64,000 nucleotides of DNA from Astrocystis sublimbata (Eukaryota > Ascomycota > Sordariomycetes > Xylariales > Xylariaceae), in contig JAJNNY010000055.1 of the NCBI GenBank assembly GCA_022453515.1, positions 62,001 through 126,000 of the forward strand. Reading direction: 5' to 3'. The position numbers and the translations under genes are program-made. The notes under the pieces are model-generated. The model did no database searches. It saw nothing but the letters and a program-made list of their open reading frames with translations, and was not told where the DNA came from. Each line of letters opens with the position of its first letter. Positions within the stretch are counted from its first letter, which is position 1. Shown piece by piece: positions 842 to 53,614 of the stretch.

Positions 842-1690
842 ATGAAAGGGGATCCGACCTTTGTTATGCTGCGACACCCGGCCTGGCTGGACGCTACGGA
901 ATTCGAGGACAAAATGCTAGGCGCGGTTGTGCGTTATCCATTCAAGCCTTCTAATGAATACCTGCCGGAGTCTCCTCTCCGCTACAACAAATGCGACCTT
1001 GTTGAGGGCTGCTTCACCGACTTTCTGAATAGCAACACCCACACCAAGTCGCGCAATGCGTCAGCCGGTCTTGAATCTCTCATCGGATTTAATTGGCGCG
1101 GAAGCAAGAAGGACAGCGTTCGCCTGACGGGGAAACTGCTACGATATAAACGTCTGCAGCAACATTCGCAGTTCTGGTCGCAGCTGAAGACAGACCAGGC
1201 CGTCATTGATGCGGTCCCGAGCTGGATCTCTTTGTTCAACACATGGCCGCCGTGCCTCGTCGTTGGCATCATGACAGCTGAGGACGTCGAGCTAGAGTTC
1301 GTCAATGCCTCTGAGCATCAGCGGCAGGGCGAGCTCGAGGCACCGGTGGCAGGGCTTGCCTTAGCAGCCGCCGGCGTGCCTTCGGGGCTGTTAGCCGATT
1401 CTGGTGTGGGAGATCCGCATATAGGGGTTGGGTCCGGGAAGAAAGTCGCGACAGTATCCAAGTCGAGCGCCACGCGAAACAACATCGTTGTGCTAGAGCT
1501 GCGGATTATCACCACTGAACTTTTTCGTAGGCGGGAGCTGGCTCTGAAAGAAGAGGGTCCAAACGTCGAGCCGGGGCGCCTTGCGGACGGCGACGAGGCT
1601 TTTGAGAGTGGAGATGAGGACGCGATTGTGGGAATGGAAAATCTAATCCTTGAGGAGTTCACCGAGGAAGAGTACGCTGAGATGGAATGA
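842..1690 (+). CDS. Gasdermin-like pore-forming cell-death protein (HET-Q1/RCD-1 type)
   Basis: A single uninterrupted frame of 282 residues. Family knowledge: fungal gasdermins are cytosolic proteins of about 250-280 residues. Their N-terminal domain makes membrane pores and kills the cell after a short C-terminal segment is removed, often by a protease encoded next door. Seen here: a beta-rich body including a hydrophobic strand around residues 137-153 (WPPCLVVGIMTAEDVELEF), a Gly/Ala-rich apolar hairpin-like stretch around 168-190, a strongly alternating strand around 215-228, and a very acidic tail (about 237-282) that could be the inhibitory part. The length, the strand pattern and the tail-to-tail S8 protease 156 bp away support the call. 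There is no signal peptide or transmembrane helix. The assignment rests on pattern and context, not an alignment; a fungal orphan protein is the alternative. Confidence 0.7.
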   Translation: MKGDPTFVMLRHPAWLDATEFEDKMLGAVVRYPFKPSNEYLPESPLRYNKCDLVEGCFTDFLNSNTHTKSRNASAGLESLIGFNWRGSKKDSVRLTGKLLRYKRLQQHSQFWSQLKTDQAVIDAVPSWISLFNTWPPCLVVGIMTAEDVELEFVNASEHQRQGELEAPVAGLALAAAGVPSGLLADSGVGDPHIGVGSGKKVATVSKSSATRNNIVVLELRIITTELFRRRELALKEEGPNVEPGRLADGDEAFESGDEDAIVGMENLILEEFTEEEYAEME

Positions 1691-1846
1691 ACTACCGGGC
1701 GGTTATGGGAACAAAACTACGACTTCATGTGATTTACCAATGAGCACTAAGCATCGTGCAATCAAGATTTCTGTTTTCATATTTCTTGTATTTCATGTTT
1801 TTCACTGTCGAACTGATCTTACAATACACGTGTATACATCTACGAT

Positions 1847-4800
1847 CTACTTCAGGTATTGCTGTAGATCACCTCTTATCTTGTCCTCCTCGGTATATTT
1901 CAGATATCTCGTCGGGCTTACCAATTCATACCCATCGATATTTGTAGCCATGAGCTTGAATATGATCAAGATACCCTCCGGACTCCAAGGTTTGATTACC
2001 CACGCATGCCCAGGCATCTTCTTTTGGATGTACCCTATCATGAATGCCGCCACGGCAACAGCGACAGGGGCGGCATATGACGTGCCAGACTTGTATCCAT
2101 TCCGTTATTGTCGCTTGGGGTTTTTGCGGGCCATATGGGCCGCACATGCTCACCCACGAAGCTAAAGTTTCTGTCCTCCTCGAGCCCCGGGTTGCGCTCA
2201 GCTTTAGATCCTTGACATGTAGCAGAGTGGGCGCAAATGACCTTGTCATACTTGGCTGGGTAGGTGCGTGAGCCTTCGCCGCCGTCGTTTGACGCCGAGG
2301 CAAATACCATGATGCCTTCGTGGAGACACTGGCGGATTTCCTGTCCCATAATGTCTGGGCTTTGGACACTGTCGAACCCGAAAGAAATAGTTATCATTTG
2401 AACACGCCATTGCGTTCTTGCGTATTCGAGAGCCTTGGGGAACGTCAGCTTCGAATTTCTCAAGCGATTCTCTGTAATGCCGCTGCAGTTCAAATAAGAC
2501 AAATCTTACCTCTATAATATCTTTCCTTTGGCAACCCTTCGGACTGTCGGTAATCTTCGCGATGTACAAGTCAACATTCTTAGTGAGTCGGAGTATAACA
2601 GCTGCTATATGGGTGCCATGACCAACGAAATCCGTTTCTGCTTTGCTGTCGATAAAGCTGACTTTTCCTCTTATTCGTTCACGATCTTCATCACTAAAAT
2701 CGGAATGCTGGGTATTGATTCCAGAGTCGAGAATCGCGACCTTTAGACGTTCCTCGTGAGAACGGCCCAAAAGGCGGTGCGTGACGATTAGCTTTTGGAA
2801 ATTGGAAAACCACTGGTCTGTTTGTTTTTGCCTAATCGCCACATTAGCAAGTTGAATTGACTTCTGTAGAGTTTCAGGTAAGCACGACAGCACTACATAC
2901 CTATTCTCGATCTTGCTGTCATTCTCGCTGTGTATTTCCCCGTTGTTCAAGCTTGGGTGCAGATAGGACACCGCTTGTAGCTTGGACAGTATGGGTACTG
3001 AAACGGTCGTGTTCAGTACTGGAGTTTGAATTGAGCTGGGGTACCCAGTTGCAACGCTACTTGGCTGGGGTGAGTTGACATCATTGAGAGGAACTTCCGT
3101 CTCCCGGAAGGAAATCGGGTCTGGTTCAAATAACTCGGGATCTCCATCGTGAGACCATGACTCCTCGAATAATTGTCCCAATGGTGCGACAACGTTATTG
3201 AACAGGTAGTCACGAGCAGCGGCTTCGTTGGTCCCAAATTCGTGTAGGTCTGGTTGTAGGCAGATATTGATCATCTCTCGCACAGCCTGATATACATTGC
3301 GCCTCTTCCACATGGGGGACACGACGATCTTGTACGCCGTGAACTGATCGTCATTCTCGATCGGATCCTTGCTTTTGAGCGATTCCTCTAGCCGATGGTG
3401 CTCAATGCCTTCCCCGAGTTCAATCTCTAGCAGCATAATCCCCAAAGCTAAGATCTTCGGGTACCGGTGCGTCGCAGACGGAAATCGATGCATGATGTTC
3501 TGTTCCGTCGGGCACTCACTTTGCGACGCAAAGGCAGGGCGTTCAAATTGCGGAGCAAGTTCGGTCGCAAAGTAAGGCTTGTGGATCAACGCTATCATAC
3601 CTTGTGTCACAGACTGGCCATTGAGACACTCACGCATGAAGTGTATATCGTTCTTTGACCAGTTCGTTCTCATCCAATCCGAATCATAGAACTGCCACAC
3701 GGCCTTGGCAAGCAGGTATGAGAGGAGGACTTTGAGCTTGTCGTTGCCGTGCAACTTTCTCTTCTCAAGTACCGTCGCGAGTGAAACACTAGATGCATTC
3801 AAGAGGTACAGTCTCTCTAGTTGTTTCAAATTCAGTTCGAGTCGCTCATAGACGAGACCGTCACTTGCCGCGTTTAGAACTAGTCTCCCGCGGTGTCGGC
3901 GACGAATCAGGGCGCAAAATTCTTCAGGCGATATTGTCCTGGAACCTACCCACTTGACGCTTGCCGGTCTCGTCCCGTCACTGCCTCATGTTAGCAACTC
4001 CGCTCCTCTATTTGAAACATCAGGGTCAAAGGAGTAGATAGATAATTACCCTTGGAGAAAAACGCGAATTCGAACCTCCTTCCACATATCATCTACAGAA
4101 CCTGGGTGTCGGTGAAGGAAAAATAAATCAAAAGGGACGTCGTCCTTCGTTTTTTCAAGCCCATGTTCACGTGTCAAGGCGACATTAGTCATGAAGCTCC
4201 CACCGCAGCCGTCGCCCTGGGGCGAACAGTAGCAAAGGGTGGCATACAACACACGGAGACAGGCAGTGTAGTCGTCACACTCTGCTGGCTTAGCACCGAA
4301 TTTTAACAGTTTTTTGAGTGGAGGGCCACGGGGGGGGCTTTGGGTAACATTCGCAAACGCTATGAAGGATTTTTGAAATTTTTTTCGTTCTCTATTAGAA
4401 TGCATGTGTGTACTCTTGGCAAGGCGTCTGAGGCTAGTCGTCGTCGGCTTTTGAACGCCCCTGATGAGGCAGTTCAACGAAGGATAATCGTCGCGGCTGA
4501 AAGGGAGGTTGGCGGGGGGCTTCCAACCGCCGGGCCACTACAAGGAAAAAATTATCATCTTTTGAAGGCACCTGAGAATATCGTGCGGGTTCGAAAGCCA
4601 ACTTACCCTGACAAGTGTTTCCAGAGCTATCAGAAGCTTGAGAACTTCCTTCTCGATATCCGAGCCCCTGGAACACCCGGCTTCGCCAAATTCTTCAAGA
4701 CGCACTGTGACATGTGAAAACAACGGAACAAGTAGGTTAAGGAACATTTTAGTCTTGCTTGAAGCCCCTGGTGCTTTGGCTGCCGTTTCCACAGCTTTTT

Positions 4801-4870
4801 GTACCTCTTTAACCGCCGTCAACGTAAACGACAGAATGGCGGAGGCTGCGGCGTGTGACATCGTCTTCAT
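1847..4870 (-). pseudogene. Subtilisin-like (S8) protease with DUF7580-type N-terminus, frameshifted near the active site
   Basis: Four exons fit: 4870-4607, 4537-4050, 3980-2510 and 2433-1847. Introns have good donors (GTAAGT, GTAATT, GTAAGA) and branch sites (GCTAAC, GCTGAC). The product would be about 936 residues. The N-terminal two thirds is helical and resembles the fungal DUF7580 region. The C-terminal third is an S8 domain with Asp in AILDSGIN (about residue 669), His in VGHGTH (about 705) and Ser in SGTSYAAP (about 859). The frame carrying Asp and His and the frame carrying Ser do not join: the coding phase shifts within about 2095-2104, just after the SDNNG segment. This means a two-base gain or one-base loss, a sequencing error, or an unusual 68-nt intron (donor GTGGGT). 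It lies tail-to-tail with the gasdermin-like gene and head-to-head with an NLR, as expected for a protease that activates a gasdermin after an upstream signal. Confidence 0.75.
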
Positions 4871-5315
4871 GAGTTTTTGACAATTCAGAATTAGGTATCA
4901 GACTGCCCGGTTGGGGAATACGTCGCCAAAATCGGCCTTGGGGAGATAGTGATAATGCGAAGTCCTGGACTCCTGCGTCGTGAGGCTACCTCTCGGGATT
5001 AACCCCCTGCACCATCATTCCGAATGCAACCTCACCCGAGTTTCTTGGCGCTTACCACCCGTCCCTCCTCTCCTGTAGTCTCTTTTTAGCATAGCATCGC
5101 ACCACCGTCATAACCGCGCTCTCTCAGACGTCGTGGACTCGCTATTTACGCAAAGCAACGTCTCCAACTCTATCTAGAATATCCGAAGACTTGCAAAGTT
5201 GATCAACAGGCCATTAAAGACATCTAGCATTGGTAAAAGAATCGTTGCCCCAGTCACGGTTCCCCTTTCACCCAGCAGCATCAACGTTTTCTACGCGAAG
5301 TCTGCAGCGTAGAAG
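4871..5315. promoter_or_regulatory. Shared divergent upstream region of S8 protease and NLR
   Basis: This 445-bp stretch separates the start codons of the minus-strand protease and the plus-strand NLR, so both promoters must lie in it. It is relatively GC-balanced with pyrimidine-rich stretches and contains no supported open frame. Joint control of the two genes is an inference from the arrangement only. Confidence 0.6.
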
Positions 5316-8300
5316 ATGGAGGCCAGCGACGACATATGTCGCGCCGCCGAAGCCTGCTGCAGGCGATTCGAAGCTTGTATCACCGACCCGGCGATGAAAG
5401 AATACGTCATTCTCATCGAGTCTGCGCAGGGAGATTTCAACTTGTGGTGCTCAGCGATCAAGGCCGCAAGCAAGGGTAAAGCCTCACTCGACTATCGGCT
5501 GAGAAACCATCAAGATATGCGCGAGGTAGTGTGTGGACTGCTTGATGGGCTGATAACTTCATTGGAACAATGGGCAAAACGAGCGGCGTGTAAGTCAGGC
5601 AACGAGCTCCGCGCGGCACTTAAGGTGCCTCAGGGCTCACATATTCCGACTGTCGCTGACTGCCGTCCTATTAGCCATACTTGGTTATACAGAACAATCC
5701 GAAGATGATATCGAAGAACGGTCCACCTCTCCAACGAGTTCAGGGAGTCCTATGTCTTGGGACGCGATATCAGACGAGTGCAGCAACCCCAATCCTAGTG
5801 AGGCTGAAGATATACCTCACCGGGATCCCGCAATTGCTGAATACATATTTTATGTCCAGACAACCCTGGACCAGCTTGTAAGAATATCACTTGCCATTCA
5901 AAAGGCGGGTGATAAATATCGATTCGAGAAAGTCGATGCGGAATTGGACGAGGGTCGCTTTGAAGAGTTTCGCAACCATCTTACCAGCATCATACTCAAA
6001 GCTTTCCCTACTCACAATGCCCAAGATCTTACAGCCGAACAAAATCTGGAGCGGGTTTCAGACTTTGAAGCACTGACATCAATCCAGAAGCGACTCATTC
6101 ACCTTAATATTCTCAGAAGACATCGCATAGAATTCGAAACAAAGTCGCGGGAAAAGGGGCGCCGCCCGCTCGATTCAGCAAGAGATGGGCACGGATTCGG
6201 CGAAAATCATGCCACGCTAGAATCCCCCGTTACCAGAAGCCCGGATTTTAATTCAATACAGGCTTCGGGCGCCAGTCAACCATCACCTCCCATTGTTTCG
6301 AAAGCGAGCCCTACCCCGTCCATAGTATCCAAGGAGGCCCTGACCGCTACCGAAATTGGATCTGGCTTCGATGTCAAGCGGTTCATGTCTACACAGCCTC
6401 CCTCGAAGACCATGAACTTGACAAGAGTAGGGGCGGCCCAGTCCTATCCAAGCCGTCCGAAATGCGGCCCAGATGGTCTATTGTTATGTCCATATTGCGA
6501 TGACGTCCTCCCTTCATCCTACGCAACAAATGAACAAAGCTGGAAGTAAGTAGTCTCCTATCTCAATGCTACCACTTGCAGCGCCCTAACTAGATGTGGT
6601 GCAGAGCGCACGTCGTTCAGGATCTCATGCCATATTCGTGCTTTTCAAGCGAGTGCGAAACACCGAATATGCTGTACCTGACGACCGAGGACCTACTTGC
6701 TCATATGATAGAAAAGCATTCGTCTACATGCTGGACATGCAGCTTTTGTAGTCCGGGTCACCAAGTAACTGGAAGTTTTTCCACTGGCACTGAGCACAAT
6801 TTCTGGAGTGCCGAGGCTTGGGAAAGCCACGTCATGGATGTTCACTCTGGCCGAGTCAAGATCACACAGCTACCTGTGTTTCTGGAAATGGCTAAAAGGT
6901 CCGTGTTGATGCCAATGGCATGTCCGCTGTGCGACTTCTCGACAAATGTGATAAGTTATAAAGTCGACGATCACATATTGCACCACTTACACGAATTTTC
7001 TCTAAGGGCTCTGCCCGAGAACTCCAATCCTACAGATGCTAAAGGAAGCAAGACATCTCAGGTATCCGGCTCGCTCTCTCACATTAAGGACTTAGACCAG
7101 GAGGAAGCGCTCCCTCTTGAGTATCCTTTCTCAACAGAATGGCAGGGGTCCACTGGAGGTCTAGCGCTCTACCACAAGCTGGAAGAGTCAATGCTAGGGT
7201 CCCACGACGCATTTGGTGATGGAGGTGAACTTGATCACGGAGTAGTTCAGTTCCTTAAATGCCACCTAGTCAACGCGAAATCCCATCTTTCTACTAAATT
7301 TCGTGGGATGGAGATCAATGAAGACATCATGATTTCTACATATGAACAAATCCATATGGACCTCACCGACTCCCTGGACAGGTATCGTGAGTCCAAACCG
7401 TGCAACTACGGACGTCATGATGGTCAAGGTACTTCCATGCAATTATCTGCTTTACCTCATCCCGTCTTGGCTAATATGATGTTTCCTTTCTTGTTTTTAG
7501 GTCCCCCCTTTGCCCACGAGTTGCCGTTATTGCGAACTCGGGATACGCCTGCTAGCCACGAAGGGGTTCGAGAAGAAATTGAGTTCCAGTTGTTTCAGCA
7601 ACGATCTGTTCTCTATTTAGGATTTGACTGCCAACCTAAACATCAGCCTCGTGTAATCCTTACAGGAGGTTCCGAAAAGACCGTAGTTGCGGCGGAACTA
7701 GCCCATCAGATTCATGCAGAAAGACCTGAGTGTTCTATCTTCTGGGTAGATGCGAGCAATGTCCACAGCATCTCGGCCGCATATTCTAGAATATGGAAGG
7801 CTCTTGGGGAACCAGGAGGCGCCACAGCCATCGAGAGATCTACAGTGTATTTTTTGAATTGGGTCATCTGCAACGAATGGCTCATGATTCTGGATGGTAT
7901 CGACCGCCAAACCTTACTGTCCATGCAGCTCGAGGGTTGGCTCCCGAGTGGTCTCGGTGGCAGGATTCTTTTAACAGCTACGGATTCCTGCTTTGGATTG
8001 CTAGACCAAGCTACGGAAATTCAAATTCCTCCTGAGGAGGAACAGGTGCAACTTGATTCCGTGCCTCCTTTGCGGCCTTCGAAACTCGACGATTTCGACG
8101 TTGCGATAATATGCACGTCGCAGGAAGGGTATGACGCGATGGACTTACTGTTCAATCGGATTTGGAACGAGAACAATCGGGAGTTCAGCTTCTCCAATGA
8201 AGAGCCAGAGATTTCAGAATACTTGACCGCCTTTCGAGCCGGCCATCTTTCAGGATTCAATGCTATCCTAACTCTGGGACTCGATGTTGAGACGATCGCC

Positions 8301-9749
8301 GCTATCATCGGTGATTACTATAAGAAAATATCATTGACACTCCTCGTGCATACCTGCAGCGGCATGCCTTGGAATGCCGACAAAAGCATCACGGATATCT
8401 TTCGAGGTGACGTAGTTATTAGCCCTGCATCCTCTCAACACAGCTGGGATCGCGGAGACCTGCCTCCCTTCGCCAACGAGACCCCAGCTCACTCGGATAT
8501 TGATCCCTTGTTCGCCTTTATAGGGAGCGATGAGAGCTGGGAACGTATGCAGAAAAACACAACGTCCTTCCTCGAACGTTTGAAATCCAAGTCCGCTATA
8601 AGTGCTCATCTTTATACCTACCCAGGAATGGCAGAGGACAGACTTTACAGATCGAGATATGACCATCATCACCATGGTTTTCCAGAATGTATATGCAGGA
8701 TGACTGGTAAGATCTGCGCTAAGGCTTGTTCTCTGAGCTGTGATGCTTTGGAATGTGACGAGCATTACCTAATAGAGCGAGAAAAAGTCCAGAGGGAGGA
8801 AAAGCCCCGGCCTTTGTTACATATTGGGGGTATTGTATACACTAACAACTTACATCTCTCCAAGTTACTACCTTATGAGGTTGGAAAGGACTCATTCCGC
8901 GCGCTGGCTTGCGACATCGAAGCAGACTTAGGATATCTGCCACACGTTTCTATCGGAGGTGTGCGCGATTATGGCGATCTACATAACCAGGCGCTGTGGT
9001 CCAACTATGCAGCCGCGACGGCAGCCGCGGCCGCGAAGGCACTACTTGAGGAATATAGCCGTCTGTCACCCTGTATGCTTCCATCCGGCAAGGGAGATCG
9101 CTTGATCGGGCGCTTTGATATACTTGAGCCCATTCATTCAAAAATCACTCTGGGTACCGGGGAAGCTGGTTCTCAGCTCTATCAGCGAGCCGCTATCGTA
9201 GGCCGTCCAGGAATTGGCAAAACTCGAGTCGCACTCGAGGTTGCCCATCGGTTCCGCCGCGACGATCCAAAACATTCGGTCTTTTGGGTTTCAGGACATG
9301 ACTCCAGAAGACTTGATGACGACTTCCGCGCAATCGGTAGACGGCTTAGACCTCATAAAATATCTGAGGATGACCTGAAACCAGGTGAAAATCTAACGTC
9401 GCGCGTTCAACTAGAACTCAACCGCACCAGTGCCGGCAGATGGCTTGTCATTATCGATGATGTAGATGACAGCATTATAGACACCTTAGGCGACTGGTTA
9501 TCCTCAGATCCCCATGGATCCGTCCTATTGACATCCCGCCAATTTAGGACTGCCAGCCAAATAGGGATTCCCATGGAGAACATTATTCCTATGTCCAACA
9601 TGAGAAAACTAGAGGTGACTGAGATGGTTCGAGCACACTTGCCACAGGATGAGGATGCCTTCCTTCCAATCATTGTACGCGAACTTCTTGACAGCAAAAG
9701 ATGTTCGCCGCTTGAGATCATTGAGGCGTGTGGTTTTATGAAAAGGTAG
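5316..9749 (+). CDS. STAND/NLR-type protein: C2H2 fingers, degenerate NB-ARC, phosphorylase-like domain, second NB-ARC
   Basis: Exons 5316-5589, 5675-6545, 6605-7428 and 7501-9749 give a continuous 1405-residue protein; the introns have GTAAGT or GTACTT donors and CTGAC, CTAAC or CTAAT branch sites. Domains seen: an N-terminal helical region (1-300); C2H2-type fingers (CPYC near 363, CSFC near 425, CPLCDF near 488) as in the fungal acuF-like zinc-finger family; an NB-ARC-like segment near 700-840 with a damaged P-loop (TGGSEKT) and a Walker B-like LMILDG; a PNP/UDP-phosphorylase-like domain (854-1175) from DFDVAIIC to the Ala-rich motif before ALLEEY; and a second NB-ARC with an intact Walker A (VGRPGIGKT, about 1223) and Walker B (LVIIDDVDD, about 1305). 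Related proteins usually end in TPR, ankyrin or WD repeats, but this one stops right after the second NB-ARC. It is probably an intracellular sensor whose partner could be the divergent protease. Confidence 0.75.
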
Positions 9750-11076
9750 TAGTCGAACACCTCCAGCATTTGCTATAAGGGATGTTACTTCAAGAAACAA
9801 GAAAAGGCGGGCGGGCAAAAAAACGAAGTTCCATGAGATCTACGGGCTGGAAAAGACGAGCGGAATCCGGAATATTTTATGAGAAGTTCTCGATGGTTGT
9901 CGTCGTATCCCAAAGTCTACATAGAAGGGCTAGACGGCTCCCAAGTGCTTGGGGAAGCCCAGGAATCAATGAAATTGACACTTGATCCTTGCCGTACTAC
10001 TTGACTACGAGTGTAGTCGATTAGACTCTTACACACAAGTGAAATGCCACTTAACATATATTAGGCAGAGCTTTTGGGTTACGTAGTACCAAAAACACGC
10101 ATCACGCAACATCAACAATTGAAGAGCTTCTATGAGCAGCAGTCTTAAAGGAAGACAAGTAGCAAATGAGTTAAACCAGGATTGAACAAGTGGGTAAAGG
10201 TAAACACTGTGCCCCGTATTATTTGGTCTTTATCACTTTCATACTTTATATTACTAGAAAATATGAAGGATCAATCGGTGTTTTTACTTGCGTACTATTC
10301 ATTAACTCAATACGAATAAGAAAACTTACTTAAATAAAGTATCTCAAGCATTAAGCTTCACATTGTTACTTGGATACGCCTTTCAAACATTTCTCACAAG
10401 GGCAAGCAACTAATTAAGGCAATAAACACAAGCGGAGGGTAGGGTTGAGTAACGAATTAGGACCTAATCAATTTATTCATTGCCCCTCGTATAAATATCT
10501 AATAATTCGCCTTACTACATACATGTTCAAATACCAAACAAGCAGTCAAACTCTAACGATACAAGCCGGTCTTGGTCTTAGTCATCCCAATTATTACCCA
10601 ACAAGAAATCCAACTCCAGTCTGGAGAACCACACCCGCATCCGACGGGCGGAGCAAGTCAAGTCAGAATAGATCAGTAAGTATCCACTGTGGAGGGGATC
10701 CTTGGAAGAAACGTACCGTATGTAGGAGCGAACACTATCCACATTGCATTGCAGTAGCCGCCGGCCGTCAGACCGAGGTGACCTCAACGTCGCACGCAAT
10801 CGGATCTCAGGGTCTCGGATGCATTTGCCCATTTCCCTTTTCCCTCTGAATTTAGATAGATACCCTACCTTTCCACAGAACATAGACCTTAATTATTTGC
10901 TTTTTTCTCCATGCTTACAATTGCATAGCGCTTACACTTGCTTCTCCCTACCTCCTACCACCAACCTCGAAATACCTGTAAGCTATCAGGTCACAGAGGT
11001 AGACTCCGAATTTCCAAGACGCTATACCCCGCCCCCACCACCACCACCACCACCCCCGGATAACCTTACACCGACG
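9750..11076. other. Intergenic, AT-rich stretch after the NLR
   Basis: No gene is supported. About 9990-10520 is clearly AT-richer than its surroundings. No TPR, ankyrin or WD-type repeat coding that would extend the NLR was found in the frames just after 9749. The last few hundred bases before 11077 look like the leader of the following gene. Confidence 0.5.
11029..11058. repeat. (CCA)n microsatellite in the leader of the GGT-family gene
   Basis: A short run of CCA triplets lies about 20-50 bases upstream of the chosen start at 11077. It opens an upstream in-frame proline run if translation started earlier (frame open from 10744), but that N-terminus shows no domain and is treated as untranslated leader. 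Confidence 0.7.
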
Positions 11077-13605
11077 ATGCCCCTCACGACAACGTCGGTC
11101 TTCCCGCCGGCCTCGACAACGGGCGAGTTCATCAAGTTCGCGGGCCGGCGCAGCGTCGTGCACAGCACCAAGGGCATCGTCGCGTGCACGCAGCCTCTGG
11201 CGGCGAAATGCGGGATCCAGGTTCTGGATGCGGGTGGGAATTGCGTTGTAAGTGGTCCCTTTTTAAATAATTTTGCTCGATGCTTTTTTTTACTTTCCCT
11301 AAGCACGCAATTCGACAGTGGCGCATTTAGTGTATATTGTATATACACACAATGAGCTATTGTGCGATGCATTTACTACAATGCATTGACTGGCGCTTTG
11401 TTTAATTGATGTAATGAATGATTAAATTGATGAGCTCAAATGGCTAACATAGTCTTGTTACGATTTATAGGATGCAGCGGTCGCTGTTGGTAAGTAACAA
11501 ACATCTATCTCATTACAGCACACCTCACCTCACCTCAAAAGCGTTTGCAAAATACTTGTAATCATACCACACCACATCATAAAATGAAGTGAAAGAAGTC
11601 TCCTATTCCCCAACTTCATGTCCCATCCCTTACAAAATGCCCCGTCCCATAACCCACATCACAACAGCCATTCCCCAAATCGCCTCCAAGGAAGCATGAT
11701 TACCTTAGCTAACATTCCTCAACCCCCCTAGCCGCGGGCCTCAACATGACCGAGCCCTGCTCAACCGGCATCGGCGGGGACATGTTCTGCCTATTCTACA
11801 GCGCGAAGGACCGTAAGATCCACGCGCTCAACGGCTCCGGGCGATCAGGGGCGAAATGCACGCCGGAGACGATCCGGCAATCGCTCGGCATTCCCGAAGG
11901 CGCGACGGGCGCCATCCCCATGGACAGCGTGCACGCCGTGTCTGTCCCCGGAGCCGCGGCGGGCTGGTGCGATGCGGTGCAGCGCTTCGGCAGCGGCCGT
12001 GTCAATCTAGAACAGATCCTCGCGCCCGCCATCGAGCTCGGGGAGAAGGGGTTTCCTGTGTCGGAGGGGGTTGCTTATTTCGTAAGTTTTCTTTTTTTTC
12101 TTCCTTCCTTCCTTTTCTTCTCTCCTTTTCTCTCTTTCTGTAGTGATTAGAGATGGAGAATATCTTGCATCAGTGAGGCCGCATGTGCAAGCAAGCAACA
12201 CTTGCCAACTCCACGTACACCTCCCGCTATAAGTAAATCCACGAAATAACAAATATCTAACATAAAAAAAACACAGTGGAATCGCTCCGAGCCCCAGCTC
12301 CGCCGCGCCTCCCCCAACGGCGCCGAGATGCTGAAGCGCGACCCCTCCTGCCTCGGCGGCGTGCGCGCCCCTCGTGCCGGCGAGATCATGAAGAACCCAA
12401 CCCTGGCGTCAACCTTCCGCGCCCTCGCCACCTCCGGCTCCGCCGGCTTCTACACGGGCCGCGTCGCCGAAGCCCTCATAAAAGCCGTAACCGACCTCGG
12501 CGGCCACTTGACACTCGACGACCTAGCGCACCACCTCTCGACAGGCAGCGAGTCCGTCGAAGCCATCTCGCTCCAATTCCGGGGTTTCAACGTATCCAAA
12601 ACCCTCCGATCCGAGATCGCGGACCCTGCGTTGCAGAAACTGGAGCCCGACATCGGCGTCGAAGTCTGGGAGCATCCGCCCAACGGCCAGGGCGTGGTTG
12701 CCTTGATGGCGCTCGGAATTCTCGAAGAGCTCGAGAAGGCGGGCAAGATCCCTACTTTCGGCCCCGCCGACCACAACACAACGCCGTACCTGCACGCCAT
12801 CATCGAGGCGCTGCGCATCGCCTTCGCAGACGCGTCCTGGTTCGTGACAGACCCGAACGTCGAGCGCGTGCCCGTGTCCGAGCTCCTATCACGTCCCTAC
12901 CTCTCCTCACGCGCCCACGAACTCTTCTCCCCCACCACCGCCGGCCCCCTGCCTTCCCACGGGATGCCATCCCCAGCGCACCAGAGCAGCGACACAGTCT
13001 ACTTCGCCGTCTCGGACTCTGAAGGGAACGCGGTATCCTTCATCAACAGCAACTACGGGGGATTCGGGACCTGCATAATCCCAGAGGGGTGCGGCTTCAC
13101 GCTCCAAAACCGCGCCGCGAACTTCAGCCTCGACGCCAGCGGACGACACCCGAACATGCTGGCCCCGCGAAAACGGCCGTACCACACGATCATCCCCGCC
13201 GCGGCGACGAACCTGCACGACGGCGGGAGCCTGCATTCCGTGTTCGGCGTCATGGGCGGGTTCATGCAGCCGCAGGGCCATGTGCAGGTTCTGCTGGGGC
13301 AGCTTGTGGGGGGTCTGAATCCGCAGCAGGCGCTGGATGCGCCGCGGGTGTGCATCGGGGCCGGCATGCCCGAGGACGGAAAAGTTATTTCTACCAAAGT
13401 TTTCGCGGAAGAGGGCATGCCGGAGGAGACGATTGCGGGTTTGCGGCAGCTCGGACATGATGTGGAGGTTGTCACGGGGCAGGCGAGGTCGCGGTTCGGA
13501 AGGGGCCAGATCATTCGCTGGACGACGGATCCTGTCGAGAGCGATATTGGGGTTTGGTCTGCGGGGAGCGATATGCGTGGGGATGGCGCGGCGTATCCGC
13601 AGTAG
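11077..13605 (+). CDS. Gamma-glutamyltranspeptidase-family enzyme
   Basis: Exons 11077-11247, 11471-11489 (a 19-nt micro-exon), 11732-12081 and 12277-13605 join in phase to 622 residues. The family are Ntn hydrolases made as a precursor that cuts itself; the new N-terminal threonine of the small subunit is the nucleophile that hydrolyses or transfers gamma-glutamyl groups, for example from glutathione. Seen here: the large-subunit motif DAAVAVAAGLNMTEP with STGIGGDMF, and the small-subunit start SSDTVYFAVSD, making Thr about 420 the likely nucleophile. The GGFGTCIIPEGCGF and later MGGFMQPQGHVQV segments are typical. No signal peptide is visible, unlike the secreted glutathione-degrading enzymes, so it may be an intracellular YwrD-like member of the family. 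The micro-exon is unusual but both flanking donors are GTAAGT and the family motif reads straight through it. Confidence 0.9.
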
Positions 13606-48563: not shown

Positions 48564-49463
48564 TCACCTTAACGGCCTGAAGGCCGAGACCAAAATCCGG
48601 CCAGCAAACTGCCTCGAACCTATGTCATACTCCATGACATTAGACTGCCTGGGGTGGTGGTTGGGTGTATAGCGCGTCGAACACCACGAGCAACAATGGC
48701 ACCTATAGTAGCCCGATCGATCCTGGTACAGGGCGCCCCGACACGACGGGCCGTCGACGTCAACCTCCACCTCGCTCGGGTAGCTGTAAGTATACACCCC
48801 CGAGTCATGCGCGGCCTCTAACAATCTATAACTGGCACCAGATCGGTCGTCGTTGCGCTGCCAGCCCTCCAGTCTGCGCGGGACTCTAGCATGCTCTTGA
48901 ACCTGAAATTCGCCGCGGAGCGACTCAAACGACTTCTTCAGCTCCACGTTCTGCTGGCGGATGCCGTCGAGGCTATGGCGCATGTCGCGCTGGTCTCTGC
49001 GCATATGCCGGAGGTGGCACGACACGCGGACGGCTTCGCGATAGGTGAGGCGGCCCAAGTATCTATCTATATCTTTCTGGCGCTTCTCAAGGTCGCGGTG
49101 TAGCGTCTTCAGCTCCTCGTCTCTCTGGAGATAGGCCTTGAAAGCTTTGGCCTTCGCGAAGCGGCCTCGGATCTCGCGGCAGATCTCATCGAGGAGGTCT
49201 CTGATATCCTCGATGATGCTCATGCTCTGCTCTTGGAGCCGCACGAGGGCCGGGTGGTCGTGTGTTTCATGCTGGCGGATGATGCGCTGGACAAGGTCGC
49301 AGCCGTCGCGGATGGTCTCCAGGTCATCGAAGAGCCGGCCGAGGTCGTCCCAGAGGTTGTTGTATGCGTCGCAGAGGCTTTTGATGTAGACGATCAGGTT
49401 GAAGGCTTGTTCGCCGAGTTGCGAGGAGGCAGCCAGAGCACCCAGCACCTCTAGCGCAACCAT
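48564..49463 (-). CDS. Standalone HeLo/SesA-like helical domain protein
   Basis: A single exon of 299 residues. The start MVALEVLGALAASSQLGEQAFNL followed by a long amphipathic helical region (to about 190) resembles the N-terminal helical domains (HeLo, SesA or Fungal_N type) that sit in front of fungal STAND proteins and HET-S-like death effectors. Here no NB-ARC, NACHT or kinase follows. Residues 100-190 are coiled-coil-like (DEELKTLHRDLEKRQKDIDRY), and the last 90 residues are Tyr, Ser and Cys-rich without a domain I know (HCCSWCSTRY). No amyloid RHIM-like or HET-s-like repeat was recognised. As a lone helical domain it could be a cell-death or membrane-targeting effector, or the remnant of a longer STAND gene. 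The call is by pattern only. Confidence 0.6.
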   Translation of the reverse strand: MVALEVLGALAASSQLGEQAFNLIVYIKSLCDAYNNLWDDLGRLFDDLETIRDGCDLVQRIIRQHETHDHPALVRLQEQSMSIIEDIRDLLDEICREIRGRFAKAKAFKAYLQRDEELKTLHRDLEKRQKDIDRYLGRLTYREAVRVSCHLRHMRRDQRDMRHSLDGIRQQNVELKKSFESLRGEFQVQEHARVPRRLEGWQRNDDRSGASYRLLEAAHDSGVYTYSYPSEVEVDVDGPSCRGALYQDRSGYYRCHCCSWCSTRYTPNHHPRQSNVMEYDIGSRQFAGRILVSAFRPLR

Positions 49464-50545
49464 GGAAATCTGGATGGCGTCTTATCCTAGGTAGATATGA
49501 GCGCGCGCAGGGTGGAGTTGGGAAGGCAAAGGAGTGAAACAGAAAAAGCAAAAGGAGTGAAATAGAGAAGTGATTATAATAGTGAGGCCGAAGAGTAAAA
49601 GAGTGGTGCTTGTGATAAAAGCTCCCCCTCCTTGATGTGGTGCGAGACAAGAAAAAAGGGAAGCTTCTTCCCCAAACCCGAGCGAGCGAGGTCGCTGAGG
49701 GGAAATAGATGAAGTACCATTAGCCCCTGAAGACTCCAATAGAATTTCAGAGGATTAAAATGCACGATGCGACTGTGCTGCTTACGCCCATTGCGGATAT
49801 GGCAATCAGATGCGAGCCGTACGTGCCCAATGTCTATTGATTGCGATATCTGCCAGCCCTAACAAGCACCAGACATAGCTTATCAAAGCCTTCCTAGAGG
49901 AACTACCCTGAATGAACGACTCAAGATCAGCGGAGGGGGGTGATGGGGGGTATGTATCCGAAGAAGATGAAAGTATGGCTCACGGTTTCCCCCCCAATCT
50001 GCACATAGAATTAGCTGCTAATGCAAAGCCTGCTCAATGTTCATCACGATAGGAGCACTCGCGACCCAATATCATCTAGGAGGACCCATACCAAAGCCCA
50101 ACCAACAGACTCTGTAAGATTCCCAACATCTTGTTGCGTATAGGTAATGATGGCTGTCATGAATTGCCGTATGAAGCGACGAGGAGACCGACGACGATCT
50201 ATCTACGTCGATACATGTTATCGCATCCTTATGCACTGCGCCTTCCTTTCGTGCAGAATACCTGCTTGAGTAGACTATTCTGCCCCTGACTTGACACTTG
50301 ACAGTCTCATTTAGAGAACTAACTACAAAAGACATTCAGTCAGTCTCTTCAACGACACTTTTTGGCCCCCGAAGTTCTACACTTACCTATATACATATAT
50401 GTAGCTACCTAACCTTAAGTAGCCAGCCTGAGGTGATAAGGCAGCGCCAGACGATGTTCACAAATGTATCAGTATTTCGTTCTCTTGTTGCTCATAGACA
50501 CGGCCCCATATCTACCTAGGGTCAAGATGAAGCGTACATGATTAA
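49464..50545. other. Intergenic region between HeLo-like and HET genes
   Basis: About 1.1 kb, upstream of the HeLo-like gene and downstream of the HET gene. Open frames here have no domain. No gene supported. Confidence 0.55.
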
Positions 50546-52720
50546 TTATATGATGACCATCTCACAGGGTATGTCGTTCTTAGAATTAACAAGCTCGGCA
50601 TCCATAGCCCCTTGCAAATAGCAGTCCCCAATGAGGTTCAGATACACCGCACCACCATCACCCGCCACATGCCTATTTCCGGGTCGTTTCGTTGTTGTTG
50701 TTTTTGTTATCGGCCGCATAACGAACGGGAGCCTCGCTCCATATACAACCCAAACCTCATCTCCCCTCTCAGCATGCGGCATACAAAGACCCAGCAGCTG
50801 CCGACGACGCGACTCAATGACGAAGAGGGCCCGGCCCGTCAAAGCCGCCTCAACAGCCTTGGCGTATCGCTCAGGCAACAGCCTCTCGACATCCCCATCA
50901 CGCAAGAACTGGTCGAATATTTCATCCGGCGGGTAATCGACCAGCGAAGCAGCAGTCCTCCGCCACCGCTGTCCATTAGCCCTAGTATGAAAACGGCTTT
51001 CCCTCAGAACCTTCCACGGATCCGCCGTGCGGCCCGAGAGGACCTCTTTCGTGAGCAAAGGGGCAAGATGCCTGAACCGTGCCACCTCGGAGACCTTGTC
51101 GGGAACCATGTCGGCGCACAGCAAGCGGGCGAAAAGCATCTTCACCTCCATCTTCTCGGCCTCAAACACAGACCGGACCGTCTCCCGCCATGACCCTAGC
51201 ACATCTCTGACGTGGTTCTTATCGTGTACATTCGCTACGGCGCTTAGCACCCTCGAAACCACGCCGACGCAGAACCCGCGCAGACGCAGCTCGTTACTCC
51301 CACATACCACTGCCCTGCCGCCCTTCCACCCAGACGCGCGGTACAGCCCGGCCGTGGCGAGCGTGTGGATGGCGAGATGGCTCTCCCTCACGTCCCTATG
51401 ATCAAAATCCAGGACCCAGGACGGTTTTCCCGCAAGCTGCTGCTTCTCTTCTAAGCCATCAACTCTTCGTCCAGGCCCGAAACCCGGCCCATACAACACG
51501 CGAAAATCAAACCCCGGCCACCGCCCAGCGTCCCTACCAGTCCTCGCCTCTTCAACAATACGCGTGAAAACATCCGTATAAACACCGACCAGCTCCGTCG
51601 TATAGCTCGGCACGTGGCGCCCAACGACGCAATCGGCCCGCACCACTACCTGGCTCCAGAGCGAATAGATCCTGTCGCGCGGGTCTCGGCAGCGGCGGTG
51701 GCCGAAGGTGCGGAGGAGGTAGAAGAGGCGGTCGCGTCCTTCCTCGTCAGCCCTTCCCCTCCACCTTCCCCTCCACCTTCCCCTCCCCCTTCCCCTTCCC
51801 CCTCGCCCTCGCCCTCGCTGGAACTTAATATCCCAGACAACGCGGAAGAAGAAATGCGTCAGAGCCTCCATCTTATCTCGCGGGAACAGAGCACGCGCGC
51901 GGACGCAGCAGCTGGCATTATCTCCCAGACGAGATTCCGCAAGCCGCAGAGTCTCGAAATCACATGTTGTCTTCACGGCCTCGCAATGGAAGAAGCGCAC
52001 GGCCCGCGGCAGCACGACCTCCTGCACCGTCCAGGCCCGCGTCCACCAGGGGCTGTCCTTGAGCAGCGCGAAGCCAGCCCAGGCAGCGAGGAACTCTTCC
52101 GTCTCGCTGAAGCGCATCTGGCCGTTGTCGATGGAGAAACCAGGTATGTCGTGGAAGTGGCCCCTTGCGATGTGAGACACCAGCGCCCCGAGGCTTGTTG
52201 GTGGTGTTGTACCGGGAGCGGATATCATTGTCTCCTGCCGGGGATCGGGCAGCCAGATGCACACCTGCGTGCAGTTCTGGTAGATGTCGCCCATGAGCCG
52301 TATCTGCGCGGCCTTATCGTCCAGGTCGTCCTGGTCGATACATATGGCATCGACCCATATGCGGAGTGCAGAAGAGGCATGGTGTCGTCGGAGGACATGA
52401 AGTGCCGAAGCAAGGCTTTTCGTCATATATACCTCTGTGCCATTGATGAGAGCGGGGACATCTTTTACGGAGACGTCACCCCACACGTAAGATAATGTTT
52501 GGTATGGAAATCTTGGTGTATCGAGGTTGATAATACGTAGTGACCCTTCAAGTTGGTATCCGGTTGTAGGAGTATTTGGACTGCTCGCCAGGGGCTCAAA
52601 ACAGAGTATACGAATCTCTCGGCCACCTGCTTGTAACTTCAGGTTCCGATAGAGGTAATTATGTTCTGGAGCCATGGGATGAACACACTGCATTGACCCT
52701 GCAGTAAGACTCAATGGCAT
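50546..52720 (-). CDS. HET-domain (heterokaryon incompatibility) protein
   Basis: A single exon of 724 residues from MPLSLTAG (52720). HET domains, related to TIR folds, trigger incompatibility cell death in filamentous fungi. The three blocks of the domain are clear: LSYVWGD (about 77-83), IWVDAICIDQ (about 120-130) with the following QIRLMGDIYQ and VCIWLPD, and later SPWWTRAWTVQEVVL (about 225). The C-terminal half resembles the long helical region of typical HET proteins (RLCLTT-type loop region replaced, CMPHAERGDEVWVVYG near the end). A low-complexity Arg/Gly/Trp insert lies at about 51740-51835. The C-terminal block before AERGDEVWVVYGARLPFVMR is intact, so the gene looks complete. There is no adjoining second HET domain or NLR part. 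Confidence 0.93.
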   Translation of the reverse strand: MPLSLTAGSMQCVHPMAPEHNYLYRNLKLQAGGREIRILCFEPLASSPNTPTTGYQLEGSLRIINLDTPRFPYQTLSYVWGDVSVKDVPALINGTEVYMTKSLASALHVLRRHHASSALRIWVDAICIDQDDLDDKAAQIRLMGDIYQNCTQVCIWLPDPRQETMISAPGTTPPTSLGALVSHIARGHFHDIPGFSIDNGQMRFSETEEFLAAWAGFALLKDSPWWTRAWTVQEVVLPRAVRFFHCEAVKTTCDFETLRLAESRLGDNASCCVRARALFPRDKMEALTHFFFRVVWDIKFQRGRGRGGRGRGRGRWRGRWRGRADEEGRDRLFYLLRTFGHRRCRDPRDRIYSLWSQVVVRADCVVGRHVPSYTTELVGVYTDVFTRIVEEARTGRDAGRWPGFDFRVLYGPGFGPGRRVDGLEEKQQLAGKPSWVLDFDHRDVRESHLAIHTLATAGLYRASGWKGGRAVVCGSNELRLRGFCVGVVSRVLSAVANVHDKNHVRDVLGSWRETVRSVFEAEKMEVKMLFARLLCADMVPDKVSEVARFRHLAPLLTKEVLSGRTADPWKVLRESRFHTRANGQRWRRTAASLVDYPPDEIFDQFLRDGDVERLLPERYAKAVEAALTGRALFVIESRRRQLLGLCMPHAERGDEVWVVYGARLPFVMRPITKTTTTKRPGNRHVAGDGGAVYLNLIGDCYLQGAMDAELVNSKNDIPCEMVII
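51738..51832. repeat. RG-rich low-complexity purine/pyrimidine tract inside HET gene
   Basis: On the plus strand a nearly pure pyrimidine tract (CCTTCCCCT-type units) is read on the minus strand as Arg-Gly and Arg-Trp repeats inside the HET protein. Units are in frame, so length changes would keep the protein open. Confidence 0.8.
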
Positions 52721-53614
52721 CAACCAATCAATATCAAGGCAACTGGCTGACTGCCTGAAGAAGCAAAGTAGAATTTATAAATCATCGTGTTATTTCGTGC
52801 CAGCTGCAGCAAGCACCCGTGATATGTCTGTCACGTGCTTGCCGCTTACTTGCTTGCTCGCTGGGGTATTATATAAATACAAAACACTACAAGAAGGTAC
52901 TGACTGGCTTCGAGTCTCTTCCACTGCCTCCTAGCTACTTTAGAGCTAGGAACCATGATTAACCACGCACCCGTCTCTTGGGGGCATGTAATTCCGTTGC
53001 AACCCATCTATCCAGCCATCCATCCATTTCCCAACCATCTATAGGGGAAACGCACACATCCATGTCTTTCGACCCTGGTAGGCTGAGCTTATAGTCCGTG
53101 GAATTCCATAGCCTGTAGACCAAGCCATTCATTTGCTCCTTTATATGTCTGCCTTTGATTATGTAGGCAGGCAGACAGGCAGGTAGGTAGGCATCTATGT
53201 AGACAGGGCAGCTATTGTGTGTGTCAACACTGTTTCGCTCCGTGTGCCACCTATATAGAAATAAGTCGCTCTTCCATCCATCTTTTCCATCCATAAGACT
53301 CCAGACTCATCAAATCGTGCATTCGATGCAATGCGGTATAATGCAATGTCGTGCGGTGCAATGCATCCAAACACCAACGCCTTTATGCCCGTATAGCCCT
53401 GTTGTATTGTATACCAGGAAAACCATCAATATAGAGAGACGTCGCTAATATTTCGGCGAGGAAAGGAATTTGCAGCAATATATAGAAACATTGAATCAGG
53501 TGGGGGTTTTTGTGCATGCGCATGCCGTGCCGGTAAGCAACTGTGCACATGGTGCAAGCAAGAAACCAACTTGAACTTTGAAGCAACCAAGCATTTCGCG
53601 AGTTGTATACGTTA
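52721..53614. other. Intergenic region upstream of HET gene
   Basis: About 890 bases, including the HET promoter and the 3' end of the next gene. It contains GGCAGGTAGG-like repeats near 53166-53190 and ATGCAATGC-like repeats near 53325-53365. No gene supported. Confidence 0.55.

Follow-up and report, generated by a model that had tools for sequence, protein, structure and literature searches.

A diverged gasdermin, DUF7580-S8 protease and zinc-finger partner locus of Astrocystis sublimbata as a likely copy of a recurring three-gene module

Our analysis indicates that three neighbouring genes of the fungus Astrocystis sublimbata, at positions 842 to 9749 of a 64,000-nucleotide stretch of DNA (contig JAJNNY010000055.1, positions 62,001 to 126,000; hereafter the window), likely form a diverged copy of a cell-death module that recurs in its genome and is composed of three genes, encoding a short gasdermin, an S8 protease with a DUF7580 domain and a divergently transcribed partner. 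The window was analysed as G000:C141:62001-126000 in a genome of 42.6 Mb in 189 contigs, and labels such as C165 or C132 denote contigs of that genome. Recurrence of the set, its domain content and its spacing were observed directly. The initial annotation of this DNA had proposed the third gene to be a NOD-like receptor (NLR) acting as sensor. This proposal did not hold for the set as a whole: the part of the third gene that is shared between copies is an N-terminal module with a C2H2 zinc-finger region, and among the stretches read an NB-ARC domain was found only in the window copy.

All three genes were found at the positions and spacings originally described. The gasdermin-like protein of 282 aa is encoded by a single exon on the forward strand (842..1690, an open frame of 282 codons), and the DUF7580-S8 protease gene occupies 1847..4870 on the reverse strand. 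These two genes are arranged tail-to-tail, 156 bp apart, which is the adjacency expected of a HET-Q2-like S8 protease (Q2L). The 1405-aa NB-ARC protein is encoded on the forward strand by four exons (5316-5589, 5675-6545, 6605-7428 and 7501-9749, the gene spanning 5316..9749). The head-to-head gap of 445 bp between it and the protease gene was confirmed, with the protease ATG at 4870 and the partner ATG at 5316, and the intervening stretch (4871..5315) is a candidate shared promoter. Both the introns and the genes of the window are fungal in character.

The pair of gasdermin and S8 gene is found repeatedly with a divergent third gene, therefore the set behaves as a unit, as had been suspected from the window locus. 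The trio is present four times in the genome, in the window (C141) and on C165, C132 and C2, and all recurrence reported here is among paralogues within this one genome. A gasdermin gene lies within 400 bp of each of the four DUF7580-S8 genes, tail-to-tail at 68, 124 and 156 bp and in tandem at 388 bp in C132. Five DUF7580 loci exceeded the cut-off, and a sixth (C104, 32.4 bits) was missed by the genome profile search and found via its partner. An oppositely transcribed partner of one family is present at all five loci and at C104 as well; it lies within 5 kb at four of the five and about 10 kb away on C2. On C2, the interval separating the protease from its ankyrin-type partner holds, as seen by eye, fragments of a retroelement-like polyprotein (G000:C2:412852-414057; L066/L069). 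At the four measurable loci the head-to-head gap, counted from the first ATG of each open frame, is 445 bp (C141), 307 bp (C165), 417 bp (C135) and 383 bp (C104); the partner on C132 is also divergent, the protease start there being not fixed.

Under random placement, with independence assumed and 10 C2H2 loci entered (C161 and C36 among them), the probability that four of five DUF7580 loci have a partner closer than 5 kb is about 1.5e-10, and for five of six loci including C104 it is 4e-13. In these counts the sub-threshold DUF7580 rows C117 and C152 were dropped without inspection; C13, C146 and C102 (matches to other parts of the C165 query) and C146 and C104:558549 (coiled-coil part) were removed from the C2H2 count; rows with S8 only (C129, C99 and C107) were not counted as trios, and a second C141 row was dropped. 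Members of the trios have diverged from each other, with identities of 30-48% in S8 and 29-36% in the C2H2 region of the partners, and thus they are old copies that stayed together.

The constant third gene is, as judged from its sequence, an N-terminal module/C2H2 protein and not an NLR as such; this region was missing from the earlier description of the 1405-aa protein. The module of about 90 residues is encoded by exon 1 (5316..5589), the C2H2 region lies at 6487..7016 with the intron 6546-6604 inside, and both are common to the window partner and to seven other genes of the genome, on C165, C104, C135, C164, C2, C132 and C166. Held-out profiles, in which each of the eight genes was compared with the other seven, gave 30.3-67.7 bits for the module and 53.1-118.4 bits for the C2H2 region (49.6 and 89.9 bits with the window held out), from an alignment whose pieces were partly joined by eye and which leaves out C161 and C36. 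The window partner thus has both features that define the partner family, a name given in this analysis. What comes after these two features varies, from NB-ARC/PNP in the window to ankyrin repeats in C2. In the C-terminal part of the C165 partner (L026, G000:C165:48941-51646) three stretches have 62-73% identity to sites on C13, C146 and C102 and are perhaps repeat-derived tails.

The 282-aa protein has a pore-domain-like part of about 230 residues followed by a short acidic C-terminus, the boundary being set by eye. The profile check that had been suggested for it gave no match to any Pfam or NCBIfam model, but a profile built from six other gasdermins does match PDB entries of RCD-1 (6.4e-19) and of HET-Q1 pores (3.2e-10). 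The kinship is based on synteny and on a paralogue that serves as intermediate, and by this route the protein is homologous to the fungal gasdermins of the RCD-1/HET-Q1 family over the pore-forming domain. It is about 21-23% identical to three other gasdermins of the genome. The open frame of the initial annotation stands, and its assignment as a gasdermin is supported but remote. Two AlphaFold2 models of the gasdermin reached a predicted local distance difference test score (pLDDT) of 30.0 and 35.7, too poor for judging the fold. A PDB search with the gasdermin of C140, a locus where only 1.5-kb flanks were read, gave nothing relevant, and a comparison of the C165 gasdermin with viral contigs gave no relative.

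The protease gene carries both domains that had been ascribed to it. DUF7580 scores 67.8 bits against a cut-off of 27, and the S8 part with Asp and His scores 28.8 bits (cut-off 21.8); the former lies at 3170..4144 on the reverse strand with one intron inside (profile match of 72.1 bits as G000:C141:65170-66144), and the latter at 2609..2740 on the same strand, with the Asp motif VAILDSG from 2740 and the His motif GHGTH from 2623. DUF7580 and these two motifs share one frame, built from exons at about 4870-4607, 4537-4050, 3980-2510 and from 2433 on. A kinase-like fold of DUF7580 was a by-eye impression; a PDB profile search gave 0 hits at E <= 10 and we do not claim it. The protease frame had no match among plasmids.

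The most likely course of action of the module can be drawn from the known fungal pair, in which HET-Q2 cleaves HET-Q1 (PMC12881547). By analogy to HET-Q1/HET-Q2, the protease is expected to cleave the gasdermin and the product to form a pore. The variable part of the partner, or its C2H2 region, would sense a trigger, and binding by the partner would release or cluster the DUF7580-S8 protease. The protease would then remove the short acidic C-terminus of the gasdermin, and the freed N-terminal part would oligomerise, permeabilise the membrane and kill the cell in a nonself or stress response. The constant pairing of the partner with DUF7580 and its variable ends suggest that it acts upstream. 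A linear pathway of this kind, from sensor through protease to pore, is plausible for the family. For the window copy it is weakened: the protease is interrupted as assembled, and a working linear pathway at this locus is therefore doubtful.

A number of results weigh against the window locus being a copy of such a module. The four-exon frame of the protease, 872 codons long, ends at a stop (2038) and does not contain the Ser motif, and SGTSYAAP is in another frame as assembled, so the Asp/His/Ser triad that a Q2L would carry in a single protein is not present in one. The window gasdermin used as query retrieves itself alone from its own genome at E <= 0.001, and the C165 and C164 gasdermins miss it at E <= 1. 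It is the most diverged of the seven gasdermins, with a Z of 2.0 or less against five of the six paralogues, and the hhalign probability is only 13%; Foldseek found nothing significant on the poor model, with RCD-1-2 listed second (E 7.5). The N-termini of the partner and of the DUF7580 proteins have no similarity (best E 11), which leaves a homotypic N-terminal pairing of partner and protease unsupported. In the flank of the C166 partner that was read there is no DUF7580 gene, and the partner loci on C161 and C36 were not resolved. Since C104 escaped the DUF7580 search, the list of DUF7580 loci may be incomplete. Finally, the trios were possibly duplicated as blocks and would then not be independent events, which breaks the assumption behind the probabilities given above.

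One would argue from the state of the protease that the window trio is a decayed relic, pseudogenising and functionless, and that only paralogues such as C165 work. We regard this as a serious competitor whose chance falls somewhat short of even. The S8 core goes on to GEHV..WP before the stop at 2038, via the intron 2509-2434 that is also suggested by the trio paralogues, and the Ser motif SGTSYAAP (2066..2089, reverse strand) follows in a frame different from that of the core. Thus the DUF7580-S8 gene of the initial annotation has its domains but not one intact frame. The frame changes just upstream of the Ser motif, in a stretch that ends with the stop (2038..2120, reverse strand), and the matching loop is one open, uninterrupted frame in all three other trios (C165, C132 and C2). 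The Asp, His and Ser motifs were found in these three and in C46, in all four read from unspliced sequence. The truncated NB-ARC of the partner, its degenerate first Walker A and PNP stretch and the divergence of the gasdermin point in the same direction. However, the gasdermin (282 codons) and the partner (1405 codons with introns) are still open, and an intron could restore the Ser frame: among lengths of 30-150 nt there are only two GT-AG candidates, of 56 and 68 nt, though each would excise residues of conserved appearance in the paralogues. The interruption may also stem from an assembly error, because the loop contains short homopolymer runs; large frames elsewhere in the window are open, e.g. 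one named by eye as aconitase-like, of 742 codons. A gasdermin gene without a protease could, moreover, still act as an idiomorphic allele, like het-Q1/het-Q2. The interrupted protease and the missing C-terminal part of the NB-ARC suggest that the window copy is decaying or has changed in function, and it is probably impaired. The C165 trio, in which the protease frame is open around the Ser motif, provides a test copy in the same genome.

Another explanation would be that only two of the genes form the module. The DUF7580-S8 protein would itself be the sensor in a HET-Q-type pair, and the partner would be a frequent neighbour, due to a shared promoter or a transcription-factor-like role. This agrees with a model in the literature, in which multidomain S8 proteins act as sensors in two-gene clusters (PMC10197012, PMC12881547), and C46 has a gasdermin and an S8 gene with no DUF7580 match. 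Nevertheless, we consider it rather unlikely. All five DUF7580 loci over the cut-off, including C135 with no S8 or gasdermin match, and C104 besides, face a partner of one family, therefore the partner follows DUF7580. In addition, on C164 a gasdermin gene stands beside a partner at the contig start with no S8 gene between them, the contig end being a limit on this locus. Neither at C135 nor at C104 did the genome searches give an S8 or gasdermin match. The DUF7580 proteins of these two loci (C135:479206-483333, L068; C104:547354-552127, L029) have mutually related N-termini (1e-16) and are head-to-head with C2H2 partners. A HeLo-like N-terminus on them was a by-eye impression only, and Pfam finds none.

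Returning to the three-gene module, the existence of DUF7580 genes that carry no S8 suggests DUF7580 to be what the partner works with, the S8-gasdermin arm being one output among two or more, and a single family of regulators would drive effectors of two kinds. The partners could be interchangeable regulators that act upstream, bear variable sensor ends (NB-ARC/PNP, ankyrin and others) and are tied by divergent pairing to DUF7580. DUF7580 would then be the coupling part that they have in common, joined in some proteins to an S8 that fires the gasdermin and in others to a different N-terminal domain, with no gasdermin. We offer this tentatively, as a proposal slightly more apt to fail than to hold. 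If true, it would represent an uncontracted three-component fungal counterpart of receptor-protease-gasdermin signalling; a protease fused to a receptor has been termed a "contracted pathway" (PMC10197012). The control of protease-bearing fungal gasdermin activators was left to future work in PMC12881547, and the constant third gene beside DUF7580-S8 genes is a concrete candidate regulator of gasdermin-activating proteases.

It is improbable that the window locus encodes a genuine NB-ARC sensor acting in trans in an inflammasome-like way. The four-exon model confirms the 1405 residues of the proposed STAND protein, and its NB-ARC scores 38.8 bits (cut-off 23.5), providing the P-loop by which NLR/STAND receptors are recognised. 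A first NB-ARC-like stretch (7626..7985) has a Walker A that is degenerate as read by eye. It is followed by a degenerate PNP-like (phosphorylase superfamily) stretch (8016..9062), which shares 33% identity with a protein on C124 (E 2.4e-35) that is PNP_UDP_1 by Pfam; Pfam on the stretch alone gave no match, and a PDB search with the PNP paralogue gave nothing. The second NB-ARC (9078..9749) has an intact Walker A, GRPGIGKT, and the gene family is recurrently linked to the protease. However, the gene ends inside this second NB-ARC, and a winged-helix and a C-terminal repeat sensor were looked for and none was detected, while the four paralogues examined, out of seven matched, extend further past NB-ARC, with tetratricopeptide repeats (TPRs) by Pfam in the one scanned. 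By tblastn these four gave a best E of 2 over 9822-13000, and one NB-ARC alignment (L013) reaches 9821. No NB-ARC match was found in the scanned frames of the C165, C164, C135 and C132 partners (those of C104 and C166 were left out of the Pfam scan), so an NLR as constant third member was rejected, as far as the partners of the other trios were read. The interrupted protease also stands against such a pathway at this locus. Just downstream of the truncated gene, at 10001-10500, the GC content goes down to 36% with a TpA/ApT of 1.22. An NLR of the same genome is the HET-NB-ARC-TPR protein on C125:158069-161737 (L010). Replacement of the gasdermin by some other small protein of 282 aa is likewise improbable, given the synteny and the intermediate paralogue described above, even with no Pfam or NCBIfam match.

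Gasdermin-S8 gene pairs are well known, and the recurring zinc-finger partner appears to be a new element on a known type of cluster. Among fungal gasdermin genes, about 80% have a protease gene in their cluster and about 63% an S8 gene (PMC10197012), PMC12881547 mentions clusters of two or three genes as well as kinase-like fusions, and NLRs with an N-terminal S8 or CHAT occur near gasdermin genes (PMC9815663). In the accessible parts of the open-licence literature searched we found no description of the N-terminal module/C2H2 partner, nor any paper on DUF7580. As in HET-Q1/HET-Q2 of Podospora anserina, the gasdermin is short with a short C-terminus, an S8 protease is at the same locus, and the family is linked by profile to the HET-Q1 pore entry 9uv9. 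Unlike the het-Q1/het-Q2 idiomorphs (PMC12881547), both genes adjoin here; further differences, in a comparison that leaves out the HET-Q2 sequence itself, are DUF7580 on the protease, the third divergent gene and the interruption in the window. The Q2L protease-gasdermin two-gene clusters (Clave et al. 2022, via PMC10197012 and PMC12881547) likewise combine a gasdermin gene with a neighbouring S8 gene that encodes additional domains, but here there is a constant third gene with the N-terminal module and C2H2, and the variable sensor-like part is on the partner, not on the protease.

A receptor gene beside an effector gene is also the arrangement of the NWD2/HET-S pairs of fungal NLRs and effectors (PMC10197012), from which our locus differs by the dissimilar N-termini of the partner and the DUF7580 protein. 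C2H2 domains are shared with the zinc-finger NLRs of Sordariales, of which 57 are reported, 34 with C2H2 and 52 of the 57 with the zinc finger at the C-terminus (PMC12258605); in contrast, C2H2 precedes NB-ARC in the window partner, and its relatives have no NB-ARC match. In bacterial gasdermin-protease pairs (as described in PMC10197012 and PMC12881547) a protease gene is also beside a gasdermin gene, a likeness by description rather than by sequence.

Elsewhere in the window, the Rfam scan found one tRNA and nothing else. On the reverse strand at 48564-52723, a HET-domain gene (PF06985, E 1.1e-28) lies beside a gene for a short, helical, coiled-coil-like protein of 299 aa (as seen by eye), and this place is another candidate incompatibility locus.
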